DNA of 64,000 nucleotides from assembly GCF_000702425.1 (NCBI RefSeq), contig NZ_JNIE01000005.1, positions 1 to 64,000 on the forward strand. Reading direction: 5' to 3'. The DNA is from Thermocrinis jamiesonii. GTDB lineage: Bacteria > Aquificota > Aquificia > Aquificales > Aquificaceae. The notes beneath the pieces are model-generated. The model saw only the letters and a list, made by a program, of their open reading frames with translations. It did no database searches and was not told the origin of the DNA. Below, piece by piece: positions 1 through 17,199 of this stretch. The stretch's first letter is position 1. Each line of letters starts with the position of its first letter. A program made the position numbers and the translations under genes.

Positions 1-966
1 CTTTGCAGTTCTTTCAATCTTTGAAAGCAAGCTCTTAAAGTTCCAATGATGTAGTCTTTTCCTTAGGTTTGCTTTTCCGTTTCCTCTAAAGCCTTTATTG
101 ACTTTCTTTAAGTTTTCTATAGCTATAGCCTTTCCTTTCTCTTTTGCTATTTCTACTATTCTGTGTGCCAAAAGCCACTCTTCGTAGTCTTTTCTGTTTT
201 TTGAATAGCTCATAAACTCATGCAGGCTAATACTTTGATAGCTCAAAAGATTTCCATCAGGGCTTACTTCTGATAAAGCTAAATGCAATGGGCTTGCGTT
301 TGTGTCTATGGCTATCACTCCATACTCTTTAGTTAGCCATACCTCTGGAGTTGGTATCTCAAAACTTACATTCCCATAAATCTCTCCATCCCTTAGCTTT
401 AGCTCTACTGTGTAAGGGAAGTATGCTTTACTTTTAGAGCTTTCCCAAAGCATAGCTAAAAAAGTATTCCACTTGTCTTTTTCATTGCTTGGTTCCCTTA
501 ACACCTTTGCGTAAATGAACTTTCTCTCACTTACCGTAATCCTTAAAAGAAGCTCTCCGTTTTCGTCCCTTTCAAACCTTAAAAGTCTGTTTCCTTTATC
601 TGCTTTTGAGCCTATGCTTAATAAAGTCCCTTGTCTTTGTTCTCTCCACTTTCTTTTTAACTGTTGTCTTTCTTTACTTTCCTTGTCTCTGTTTTTACAG
701 AGCTTTTCAAAAAGGGCTTTACCGCCAAACACCACTTTTTTGTCTGTTGGATATTGCTTTGCTTTGTAGATAGCAGAGCTTATGTATACGGTAGGCAGGT
801 CAGGAAACAGTTGTCTTAGCTTTTGGTATATTTGATTATGGGAGTTTTTGTTTGTTAGCAGTTTATATGCAGACCTTATGGCGGATGATTGTTTACGCAT
901 TAATTCTAAGAGCTTTTTTCTGTCGGAACTGTTCAACTAAAGTTTAAACTGCAAGCTTACATACAT
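1..966 (-). pseudogene. tnpB: TnpB-type RNA-guided nuclease gene (IS200/IS605), 3' end outside window, interrupted by TAG
   Basis: Reading leftward from an ATG at 966-964, the frame starts MYVSLQFKL, meets TAG at 939-937 (codon 10), then continues open to base 1 with LNSSDRKKLLELMRKQSS and a long TnpB-like body. Two RuvC motifs are visible: VIAIDTNASP (first Asp) and IAIENLKKVNKG (Glu). They are followed by the RLHHWNFKSLL stretch that precedes the zinc finger in this family. The zinc finger and last RuvC Asp lie beyond the left edge. A TATAAT box (981-976, minus strand) stands 9 nt before the 966 ATG, which argues that 966 is the original start. The reading frame after the TAG has no further stop, so decay is recent, or translation restarts at TTG 936 or ATG 900. 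The family encodes omega-RNA-guided DNA nucleases associated with IS200/IS605 transposons; no tnpA is visible here. Confidence 0.85.
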
Positions 967-13344: not shown

Positions 13345-16300
13345 TCAAGCTTGAGCTTTTTCAATAAACAAAAACTCTTCTAAAGCTTTTTTCAAGTTTT
13401 CAATTTCTCCTTTTAGAATAGGATTTTCCTTATCCAGCCAGCCGTTTATGTACCATTTGTAGTATGGAGTGTGTATTATTTGCCAGCCCGCTCTTTTGAG
13501 TCTTTCCACTCTCTCCACATGCCAGTCTGCGTAATCTAAGATTTTATTCCCTAACATTTTAAAGTGATGTGGTCCATCAACTTCTATTGCAAGAAACTTT
13601 TTGAGCTGTTTGCAGTATATTACAAAATCTAACCTGTATCCGCAAGTTTCGTATTGGTTGAAAATTTTAATTTCTGTCTTGTATTTTTTTTCTAACTCTT
13701 CAACAATTTCCCTAAGGTAGTAATAGACTGCTTCCTCCAGTTTAGATTCAAACTTACTAACATCCAAACTTCCATCCGACAGTCGTTCTGTGTAGTAATT
13801 TTCAAAGTGAAGTATGTATCTTTTGGTAAGATTAAAATTCTGTGGAAGCCCTGCATAAACTAGGAAAGTAAAATACTTTGCTCTACTGGTAGCTACATTA
13901 AATCTGTTTTTTTGCTCATAATGGTTCCTACTTTGAGAACATGATTCATCCAAAGCAAGGGAGATTATCATAATATCTTTTTCGTGTCCTTGAAACTCTT
14001 CGGGTGTTCCCACGAGGATGTTATCGTAATCTTCCTCCATAAGTCTTAGTCTTATGTATTCTACCTGGTCCCTCACAAAGGAAAGAACACCTATCTCAAA
14101 GTTTTGTGGCACATATTCAGGAAGTTTTACATCTTGATAAGCTCTGTGATCTTTCAAACTCTTTATTATTTTTAAGACCTCTTCCGCTTCAGCCTCAACT
14201 ATTTTTTGCCTTGTGGACCTTTTTCCTTCAACTTTTATAACTTTAAAGGCTATACCTTCCCTGTTGGGATCCCTTGTCATCACGTGCAGTTTTCCATCGT
14301 AAAACTCCCTTGAAGTAAAGCTTGCCAAAGGATAAACTGACCTGAAGTGTTCGTCTAACATAACTATTGCATCTTCATTTATATAGCTTAGAGAATCTGA
14401 TTCTTCAGAATGTTTATCAGGAGATAAGAACTCAAGGATGGAAGCTTTTGTTAGGACCAATCTTCTCTTTTTGGCTTTCTCGTAATCCATCCCTGCTGGT
14501 TTATACCTTTCCCATACAAGAGTATCAAGTTTATTACTAATCCTAAAGCCTAAGCCCACTGCTTCTAAATTAAGTTGCTTGTGATCTCCCACTACGCAGA
14601 TGCTTTTCCCTCTATAAAAGACAGGTATTATCTGAGCTAAATTTACCTGAGAAGATTCATCCACTACAACTAAGTCAAACAAGTTTGGCTTCATAGGAAG
14701 TATTCTGTCCACGCTCGGGATATCAGTTATCCAGATGTTAAAGATCTTTAATACATTTTCGTAGTTCACGCGTTCCTGTGCTTCCTTAAGCAATCTGTCT
14801 TTTGTATAATGAAATATGGACTTTAGATTAGAAAGGTCTTCCTTGTATTGCCAAGCTCTGCTGTATATTCTATCCAAAATCAAGGTTGCTATTCTTTTGC
14901 GTGCAAGCTCCTTTATCTCTTTCTCTAAACCACTGAGGGTTTTGGAATAATCATGAAGCAATCCTTTAAGCTTATCCGCTGTATACTGAATCTCACGGTA
15001 TCTATCTAAGAGCTCATACAAACTTTTGGCGAAATAAGAAAGTCTTTTCCCTTTAGTAAAGCTTTTCATTCCTAATTTTTTCAAAAACCTTTTGCGACGC
15101 AGAATATATATACCAATTTCTGTTTTACCTTTTTCTTCTAACGTCTTAAAAGTTGATTGCTCGCTTTTCAGAAAATCCATAAACCTTTGAATTTCTCCCT
15201 TATAGGTCTGGTATAGCTTTTGGATGAAATCTCTTTGAATCTCGTATTCATATTCAAAGTTAGTTAAACTCCTCTCAAAGCTCTGAGTTTTTTCTGTGTA
15301 TTCTTCGGTAAGCTTCAAATATTTTTTATATTCTTCAGTAATTTTCTTATAATCTCTAATCTTTTGCTTAAGCTCATCTTCCGTATTCTTCAAGTCCTGC
15401 TTTATTGAATATATCTTTATGTTGTCCAGCTGTTTGATGATGTTTTCTATGTTTTCCTTAGTTTTCCTTTTGTACTCCTTGTAAAAGTATATGAAGGGCA
15501 AAAAGTTTTCGTCTGAAGAGAGTATTCTTGAAAGCTTTTCAAAGAGCACTTTTATAGCAGGGGCTTTTTGGGATACGATTAATATCTTCTTATCAAGCAG
15601 TATAAACAGAAGAGCCAAAGCGGTTATAGTGTGGCTTTTGCCAGTGCCGGGTGGTCCCTGTATGTATGATACCTCATGATTGATGGCGTTTTCCAAAGCC
15701 CTTTCTTGGTTTTTAGAGATAGGTATAGGAATTTCATACCTTAGGTCCCCCAAAGAAAAGTTACCCAACTTTTCGAGATTCACTCTCTCTGACAAAGCAG
15801 AGCTTAGCAATTTTTGCAAAACTTTGTTCTTCAAATCTCCCCGTTCTTTGATCTCTTCTATCAAAAGTTCCAAAGATTTATAAGTAGAAAGCTCTGTAGG
15901 AAAATTACTAAGAAACAGATAAGTTCCGTCGTAATAATAATTCTGTTGGTTTGCTAAAATTTCAAAGGATAACCTTTCCTGTAAGATTTTAATCTTTTCC
16001 TCAGATTCAAGCATATAGTTTATTTGTTCCACAACTTCTTCAGCTAAGCCTCTCAAAGATTCCAAATCAGCACATGTTTCCATCTTTTCTTCTACTTCCT
16101 TCACAAAATCCAACAGATCATCCCTTACCCCGTATTCCTCATCTTGTCCCAAAGGAAGCTTATCAAAAAGGTCATAGTTCAGAAAAGAATTTCCTATGTC
16201 CAAAGTTATTTTTCTTTCTTCTTCCCTTACTTCCAAATTAACCACAAATATTGGAGCAAAAACTCTTATCTCGTTTATAGTATCTGTTTTAATGAAATAC

Positions 16301-16593
16301 TTCAAAAGACCCACACCCAAAAATAGCGCTTTATCATCAGAATTTGCTATCTCTCTTAGCTTTTTTTTCAGAAAGTTGTATAGATCCCCATCGCTTTCCC
16401 TTGTAATTTCCAATGCATCGCCAAATTTTAAGTCTTCTTTTAGGAAGAAGAGGGTTTCTTTAAGAACCTCAGGATTTATCCTTTTTCTTCTGGGTCTAAT
16501 AAACAGATTACTGAAATCTACTCTAACACCTATCTTCCTACTAAGTTCTCTTAGATAGCTAAGATACTTTATAACATCATCTTTCCCGACCAT
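13345..16593 (-). CDS. Large SF1 (DNA2/UPF1-like) helicase with C-terminal PD-(D/E)XK nuclease-like domain
   Basis: 1082 residues. Walker A is YIQGPPGTGKSHT (about 312-324), the Walker B/motif II variant is LVVVDESSQVN (about 640-650) followed by ICVVGDHKQL (motif III), and C-terminal helicase motifs include EFQGHEKDIMIISLA and NRFNVATSRAK (motif VI). A long coiled-coil insert (about 370-600) separates motifs I and II, as in UPF1/DNA2-type 1B helicases. Residues about 975-1065 look like a restriction-endonuclease fold: YRLDFVIY, AIEVDGPHHF, then an aromatic-rich GWQIIHTPYYKWY resembling the MTES_1575/DUF559 family. It follows the membrane coiled-coil gene by one base. A defence or DNA-processing role is inference; no named system is matched. 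Confidence 0.85.
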   Translation of the reverse strand: MVGKDDVIKYLSYLRELSRKIGVRVDFSNLFIRPRRKRINPEVLKETLFFLKEDLKFGDALEITRESDGDLYNFLKKKLREIANSDDKALFLGVGLLKYFIKTDTINEIRVFAPIFVVNLEVREEERKITLDIGNSFLNYDLFDKLPLGQDEEYGVRDDLLDFVKEVEEKMETCADLESLRGLAEEVVEQINYMLESEEKIKILQERLSFEILANQQNYYYDGTYLFLSNFPTELSTYKSLELLIEEIKERGDLKNKVLQKLLSSALSERVNLEKLGNFSLGDLRYEIPIPISKNQERALENAINHEVSYIQGPPGTGKSHTITALALLFILLDKKILIVSQKAPAIKVLFEKLSRILSSDENFLPFIYFYKEYKRKTKENIENIIKQLDNIKIYSIKQDLKNTEDELKQKIRDYKKITEEYKKYLKLTEEYTEKTQSFERSLTNFEYEYEIQRDFIQKLYQTYKGEIQRFMDFLKSEQSTFKTLEEKGKTEIGIYILRRKRFLKKLGMKSFTKGKRLSYFAKSLYELLDRYREIQYTADKLKGLLHDYSKTLSGLEKEIKELARKRIATLILDRIYSRAWQYKEDLSNLKSIFHYTKDRLLKEAQERVNYENVLKIFNIWITDIPSVDRILPMKPNLFDLVVVDESSQVNLAQIIPVFYRGKSICVVGDHKQLNLEAVGLGFRISNKLDTLVWERYKPAGMDYEKAKKRRLVLTKASILEFLSPDKHSEESDSLSYINEDAIVMLDEHFRSVYPLASFTSREFYDGKLHVMTRDPNREGIAFKVIKVEGKRSTRQKIVEAEAEEVLKIIKSLKDHRAYQDVKLPEYVPQNFEIGVLSFVRDQVEYIRLRLMEEDYDNILVGTPEEFQGHEKDIMIISLALDESCSQSRNHYEQKNRFNVATSRAKYFTFLVYAGLPQNFNLTKRYILHFENYYTERLSDGSLDVSKFESKLEEAVYYYLREIVEELEKKYKTEIKIFNQYETCGYRLDFVIYCKQLKKFLAIEVDGPHHFKMLGNKILDYADWHVERVERLKRAGWQIIHTPYYKWYINGWLDKENPILKGEIENLKKALEEFLFIEKAQA

Positions 16594-16594
16594 T

Positions 16595-17155
16595 TCATAG
16601 ATCTTTATCAGTTATTTCTTCAGTAAGCAACTTATACATTTTGTTTATACTATCTTTAAGCTCTTCAAGTTCTTTTTGTGTAGCTTTCAACTGTTGGATT
16701 GTTAGATTTGTGTACTCCCTTAAGTATTCGTTGAATTTTTCCTCCTGTTTACTTAAATGTGCCTGATTAATTTTCTCCAAATCTTCTATACAAACCTGAA
16801 GCTTATTAGCTTTATCGGTTATTTCCTTAGCAAGCGTCTTAAATATTTCGTTCATTCTATCTTTAAGCTCTTCAAATTCTTTTTGTGTAGTTTTTAATTG
16901 CTGACTTGTTAGACTTGCATATTCCCCTAAGTATTTTGTCAAATTTTCTAAGTTGTTTTTTGCTAGTTGGCTTAAGAGAGTTTGTAATTCTCTGAACTTT
17001 TCCTCCTGCTTGTTTAAATTTTCCTGATTAATTTTCTCCAAATCTTCTATACAAACCTGAAGCTTATTAACTTTACTCTTTAAATCAAACAACAAAAACA
17101 CAACTAGAATCCCCACTCCCGCAACTGCAAGAGTTAGAAAAATTAAAGGTTCCAT
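16595..17155 (-). CDS. Membrane-anchored coiled-coil protein with internal duplication
   Basis: 186 residues. One membrane span (about 4-23) is followed by continuous heptad-rich coiled coil. Residues 30-115 and 117-184 are copies of one unit: both start NKLQVCIEDLEKINQ and contain QQLK-TQKE-EELKD and EITDK. Copy 2 lacks about 18 residues present in copy 1 (around 56-74). A 47-bp stretch is identical in DNA (16762-16808 and 17023-17069), so the duplication is young or kept homogeneous. Function unknown. It lies one base before the helicase-nuclease gene and shares its promoter, so it probably serves the same system, perhaps as a membrane tether. Confidence 0.8.
   Translation of the reverse strand: MEPLIFLTLAVAGVGILVVFLLFDLKSKVNKLQVCIEDLEKINQENLNKQEEKFRELQTLLSQLAKNNLENLTKYLGEYASLTSQQLKTTQKEFEELKDRMNEIFKTLAKEITDKANKLQVCIEDLEKINQAHLSKQEEKFNEYLREYTNLTIQQLKATQKELEELKDSINKMYKLLTEEITDKDL
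16762..16808 (-). repeat. 47-bp intragenic direct repeat, downstream copy
   Basis: Identical to 17023-17069, same orientation, 261 bp apart. It encodes part of NKLQVCIEDLEKINQ in the second coiled-coil unit. Confidence 0.9.
17023..17069 (-). repeat. 47-bp intragenic direct repeat, upstream copy
   Basis: Identical to 16762-16808; encodes the same segment in the first coiled-coil unit. Confidence 0.9.
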
Positions 17156-17162
17156 AAGGTCA

Positions 17163-17168
17163 ATTATA
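17163..17168 (-). promoter_or_regulatory. -10 box of the coiled-coil/helicase operon
   Basis: TATAAT on the minus strand, 7 nt before the ATG at 17155, so the transcript would be leaderless or nearly so. No separate -35 is clear; the expected position falls inside the tandem repeat at 17174-17199. Confidence 0.5.
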
Positions 17169-17173
17169 CCATT

Positions 17174-17199
17174 TTTATTAAGCGTCTTTATTAAGCGTC
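17174..17199 (-). repeat. Perfect 13-bp tandem repeat upstream of the coiled-coil/helicase operon
   Basis: GACGCTTAATAAA occurs twice head to tail on the minus strand (17199-17187 and 17186-17174) with no mismatch, ending 6 nt before the -10 box. It covers the -35 region, the usual place for a repressor or activator site. In the remaining gap to trpB a short hairpin (TTAGGGG-loop-CCTCTAA, about 17219-17238) is the only other structure seen. Confidence 0.7.

Follow-up and report, generated by a model that had tools for sequence, protein, structure and literature searches.

A membrane coiled-coil protein paired with a UPF1-like helicase-nuclease, a probable mobile defence system

RESULTS AND DISCUSSION

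Two adjacent genes on the minus strand of contig G000:C5, from a heat-loving bacterium, encode a coiled-coil protein with a single N-terminal transmembrane (TM) helix and a large UPF1-like superfamily 1 (SF1) helicase, which ends in a domain modelled as a Vsr-like nuclease. We consider it probable that the two products work as one complex and that the pair is an unnamed mobile two-gene defence system, in which a helicase-nuclease tethered to the membrane would act on foreign RNA or single-stranded DNA (ssDNA). The window is the whole stretch of 64,000 nucleotides that was analysed, and all coordinates given for the pair refer to its minus strand.

Locus organization and conserved pairing

The original prediction of a two-gene layout with open reading frames (ORFs) one base apart agrees with what we found. 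The partner gene (16595..17155) codes for 186 aa, with the TM helix followed by the coiled coil, and its TGA stop is separated by one A from the ATG of the helicase-nuclease gene (13345..16593; 1082 aa), which was delimited by ORF, Pfam and the AlphaFold2 model. Ahead of the partner ATG, a -10 box (TATAAT, 17163..17168) ends 7 bases before the start codon, for which reason the mRNA of the pair may be leaderless. A perfect 13-bp tandem repeat, two copies of GACGCTTAATAAA (17174..17199), occupies the -35 place and is a possible operator. While the predicted -10 box and repeat were thus confirmed, no -35 hexamer is recognisable upstream of the partner gene and a consensus scan of this region found no sigma-70 promoter, so that we regard the promoter as half supported. 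The pair is followed downstream by a tRNA-His gene (13322-13247) and a leucyl-aminopeptidase-like gene, and a divergent trpB lies upstream.

When we inspected the 11 family loci whose upstream sequence could be read (seven from the order to which the window belongs, the others from Nitrospirota, Ignavibacteria, Sumerlaeota and one IMG/VR contig), every one had a gene for an N-terminal-TM coiled-coil protein directly upstream of the helicase. Among 65 control loci with other UPF1/DUF4011-type helicases, only three have a single-TM gene at this place, none of them coiled-coil. The pairing is therefore far beyond chance, and the co-occurrence in other genomes that the original prediction called for holds across phyla. 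Because a sequence search with the partner returned its own gene and three marginal matches only, the partners were identified by position. They share only about 20% identity and range from 90 to 340 aa, the lengths in L024 and L103 being judgements since an internal ATG was taken as the start.

The transmembrane coiled-coil partner

Hydropathy in the partner peaks at 2.86 in an N-terminal segment (residues 4-23, LIFLTLAVAGVGILVVFLLF, 17087..17146), with no such segment elsewhere in the protein, and the position of this predicted TM segment is kept in all 11 partners. The heptad power ratio is 19, and proline and glycine together make up 0.7% of the residues. Repeat comparison showed that the coiled-coil region (16603..17075) was built by internal duplication, with a first pair of copies at 16726-16814 and 16987-17075 (90%) and a second at 16603-16741 and 16810-16948 (80%). 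We discounted as coiled-coil noise the weak similarity that the partner shows to JetC, ZorA, apolipoprotein and others.

Partners within Aquificales keep the TM end and the C-terminal tail while the middle varies in length, as illustrated by those of L016 and L017, whose tails are near-identical, whose middles differ and whose lengths are 41 residues apart. Tail comparison places the conserved tail of the window protein at 16598..16648 (INKMYKLLTEEITDKDL); the consensus in Aquificales, KLLxEPIxDEDL, is not recognisable in members from outside this order. A tail that is kept while length changes would fit a tether with a docking tail, and on these sequence grounds we propose it as a candidate docking peptide. 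One genome, G052, carries the partner gene in two copies.

The UPF1-like helicase core

All SF1 motifs described for the large protein, together with the IEVDGPHHF site (residues 1003-1011), were found. Walker A, GPPGTGKS (residues 313-320, 15634..15657), is invariant in 10 of 10 family members; in Walker B, DESSQ (residues 645-649, 14647..14661), the family alignment of ten members shows D645, E646, S648 and Q649 to be invariant; and the same kind of alignment locates motif VI, VATSRAK, at residues 900-906 (13876..13896). Helicase residues are retained throughout the ten members. Pfam assigns AAA_11 (6e-20) and AAA_12 (4e-19) to the protein. Its N-terminal domain (residues 1-288, 15730..16593) is conserved in all ten members, of which only L024 gives a DUF4011 match (8e-7).

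The full-length AlphaFold2 model, for which the input was an alignment of the window protein with related-locus sequences, reached a mean pLDDT of 80.6 and a pTM of 0.82. It arranges the protein as an N-terminal alpha/beta domain, RecA1 with a long coiled-coil insertion, RecA2 and the C-terminal domain; the insertion comes after Walker A (residues 394-582, 14848..15414) and is modelled as helices 394-488, 490-506, 514-544 and 549-582. In Foldseek comparisons the best matches of the model were Senataxin, UPF1 and IGHMBP2, with E-values down to 1e-19; these three and Sen1 all matched at 1e-14 to 1e-19, and the SF1B fold also matched the Dna2 nuclease-helicase (1e-13). With both the motifs and the two-RecA UPF1 fold in place, we class the large protein among the UPF1-like SF1 helicases.

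The C-terminal nuclease domain

Model, PDB matches and residues together place a Vsr-like PD-(D/E)XK domain at residues 945-1078 (13360..13761). Modelled alone, it has a pLDDT of 89.6 and an H-EEE-H-E topology (alpha-beta3-alpha-beta), and the nearest solved structures in Foldseek comparisons, all at E >1e-3, are mostly PD-(D/E)XK proteins: SfsA, the homing endonuclease I-Bth0305I, the endonuclease R2, XisH, BpuSI and Bax1. From this modelled core topology and the acidic residues, we assign the domain to the PD-(D/E)XK nucleases of the Vsr/MTES_1575-like kind, so the nuclease-like C-terminus first read from the sequence is borne out by a fitting fold. At the sequence level, the Pfam match to MTES_1575 (2e-7) falls below the curated cut-off, and a match to RAP (1e-6), an RNA-associated domain, lies above its cut-off and recurs in 10/10 family members.

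The presumed catalytic residues E953, D989, E1004, D1006 and H1010 are kept in eight of the ten members. In L103 and L024, several nuclease residues have been lost while the helicase residues and the partner are retained; cleavage is thus not essential everywhere. The versions in these two loci are possibly non-cutting.

Distribution, horizontal transfer and decay

We detected the helicase (E <= 1e-20) in 9 of the 112 genomes of the order. Six of these genes are intact, one is split in pieces (G052), one is cut near a contig end (G100) and one is a nuclease remnant (G096). Full-length members outside the order come from Nitrospirota (L023), Ignavibacteria (L024), Sumerlaeota (L035) and an IMG/VR contig (L103); in the contig search a single sequence gave no match and an alignment query did. 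In a maximum-likelihood tree, the ten members form one clade (support 100/100) to which none of the sampled long DUF4011-type helicases belongs; within it, the window protein branches with L016 and L017, which come from a different family and a different genus, before joining L005 from its own genus. The helicases of L016 and L017, which belong to different families, are 87.3% identical, compared with 64% for the ligA proteins of the same genomes, and this shows horizontal movement of the pair. No close relative was found in phage and plasmid collections. Some 4 kb separate the IMG/VR copy from a predicted tmRNA gene, and integration at tmRNA genes is common. In sum, the family is patchy, horizontally transferred and decaying.

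This pattern bears on whether the pair might serve the host in housekeeping or stress RNA surveillance, as a membrane-tethered UPF1-like helicase-nuclease that would clear faulty host transcripts, comparable in concept to a membrane-bound RNA degradosome. Such a role would agree with the UPF1-like core, the RAP match and the mostly housekeeping neighbours of the family, but it sits poorly with a gene that over 90% of related genomes lack, that is broken in two genomes, and that has been transferred with its partner and has lost nuclease residues in two members. We judge it unlikely.

Genomic site and neighbouring genes

The trpB side of the locus is the variable one in genomes of the same genus. 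An N6/N4 methylase and ResIII operon occupies this site in G052, G054 and G056, accompanied in G056 by a DUF4411/IrrE-type toxin pair, and the site is empty in G055. The comparison with an empty tRNA-His/pepA site is not clean because pepA and trpB are apart in the sister genomes; three sisters have a mobB-like gene upstream of tRNA-His. As an observation on these genomes, the region upstream of trpB (L130, L131 and L132 in G052, G054 and G056) is likely a defence hot spot of this genus.

The genes comEC and dprA, which lie downstream of trpB in the window, raise the question of DNA uptake, a function that the original prediction had allowed for, or of plasmid or conjugative entry: the membrane protein would place the helicase-nuclease where it could process or destroy incoming ssDNA. 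A membrane anchor and the Dna2 match of the SF1B fold also speak for such a role. However, sister genomes with a different insert likewise have comEC and dprA next to trpB, so that these two genes belong to a trpB block found without the pair; no competence or conjugation genes were recognised beside other family members; and most related genomes lack the helicase gene. DNA uptake is accordingly unsupported, and we think a role in DNA entry quite improbable.

As to the suggested association with defence islands, most family loci are set among housekeeping genes rather than in dense defence islands, and these surroundings count against defence. The nuclease residues lost in L024 and L103 and the weak Foldseek E-values of the nuclease domain also weigh against our reading. 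Antiviral defence is nevertheless favoured, on comparative sequence grounds, by the patchiness, horizontal transfer and decay of the family and by the restriction-modification genes at the site in sister genomes.

Several further features were noted near the pair and its relatives. By eye, TnpB/IS605-type-looking ORFs are present in the window (1-936, minus strand), L126 (290-1861) and L131 (16577-18148), and one is inserted into the mobB-like gene beside tRNA-His in G054. A small ORF in L017 (16333-16575), about 5 kb from the pair, contains the repeated peptide SFACTYRGLK and looks like a CRISPR array. In L018, a gene at 15291-16067, about 7 kb from the pair, has an Mrr-type restriction endonuclease domain and an N-terminal hydrophobic segment, and a reverse gyrase gene is directly downstream of the pair in L020 (4499-7933, G036). 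Cas1 gave no match in the host genome G000 (99.98% complete), and 13 of the 21 genomes searched have one.

Comparison with named defence systems

Since the PADLOC profiles for MkoA/MkoC and PDC-S37 match all ten members, we considered that the pair could be a divergent member of a named system (a Mokosh, Hhe or CoCoNuT relative). The helicase part matches MkoA at 2e-36, MkoC at 4e-34 and Hhe at 3e-17, a resemblance to known defence proteins that, as sequence similarity, would count for defence. On the other side, NCBIfam scores reach only 59-87 bits against cut-offs of 999-2000, kinase and PLD matches are missing, McrBC gave no match in seven genomes, and the family is its own clade among the sampled relatives. 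Membership of a named system is therefore very unlikely, and the original statement that the pair corresponds to none of them stands, with defining domains missing or scores far below cut-offs.

In type I Mokosh, MkoA is a fusion of a Ser/Thr kinase domain with the helicase. Mokosh resembles the pair in its UPF1-like helicase core and in having a helicase with an operon partner (MkoA/MkoB, MkoC), but in place of a kinase or PLD domain the pair has a Vsr-like nuclease, together with a coiled-coil partner. No kinase was matched by Pfam at E-values up to 1, which separates the pair from type I; for type II, Pfam found no PLD, and the C-terminus is PD-(D/E)XK. The antiphage helicase Hhe, of the DUF4011 type, shares the SF1 core and, in one relative of the pair, a DUF4011-like N-terminus. 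It differs in length (about 1800-1900 aa against 1082), in the constant TM partner of our family and in the tree, where our clade excludes the sampled long helicases of the DUF4011 type, and the Hhe model NF042953 scores 66 bits against a cut-off of 2000. Like Zorya, the pair combines a membrane protein bearing a long coiled coil with nucleic-acid enzymes, and the partner gives a weak coiled-coil match to ZorA (7e-5); unlike ZorA, it has one TM helix only, and no MotA/ExbB motor domain was matched among the Pfam families shown, which sets it outside Zorya. The profile of the PADLOC candidate PDC-S37 matches the members with a best E-value of 8.6e-43, but this is an uncharacterised candidate of 1550 positions, of which only part aligns.

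CoCoNuT type III-B, in which a CnuH-Vsr fusion accompanies the coiled-coil protein CnuA (PMC11090510), shares with the pair a UPF1-like SF1 helicase into which a coiled coil is inserted after Walker A, the fusion of this helicase to a Vsr-like nuclease and a separate coiled-coil protein. Beyond its coiled coil, III-B CnuA is reported to lack recognisable domains (PMC11090510), whereas our partner has a TM helix. In CoCoNuT systems the helicase is accompanied by McrC and the GTPase McrB, and we found no McrBC match (PF10117) in the seven family-holding genomes, a search of limited sensitivity given that the control matched in 1 of 14 genomes. No description of a TM coiled-coil and UPF1-like Vsr pair was found in the literature. 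We place the pair with the UPF1-like helicase-nuclease kind of defence, as a variant that has no name and is marked by its constant TM coiled-coil partner.

Proposed mechanism and implications

In the defence system that we propose, the N-terminal helix of the partner would anchor in the inner membrane and project a coiled-coil rod of variable length, probably docking on the helicase via the conserved C-terminal tail or, alternatively, via the helicase's own coiled-coil insertion. The helicase would load at the membrane on a single-stranded nucleic acid, probably RNA and possibly ssDNA, and as a UPF1-like SF1 translocase would move along the strand using ATP, bringing the C-terminal Vsr/RAP-like PD-(D/E)XK domain to the strand for cutting. 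By analogy, RNA is slightly favoured as the substrate by the resemblance of the core to UPF1 and by the match to RAP, and the authors of the CoCoNuT study argue likewise for their helicases (PMC11090510); the Dna2 match makes ssDNA possible. A more specific version, in which a McrBC-free, RNA-targeting defence with a docking tail and a tether whose length is set by duplication would act at the inner membrane to destroy phage transcripts or strands on entry, is put forward tentatively, as less likely than not.

If our proposal is true, a dedicated coiled-coil tether can fix a helicase of the RNA-decay type to the membrane, and the pair would allow RNA versus DNA action, as well as the importance of membrane location for defence, to be tested with proteins from a thermophile, which are usually good for structure work. 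Prokaryotic immunity would also gain a compact two-gene system in its branch of UPF1-like helicases.
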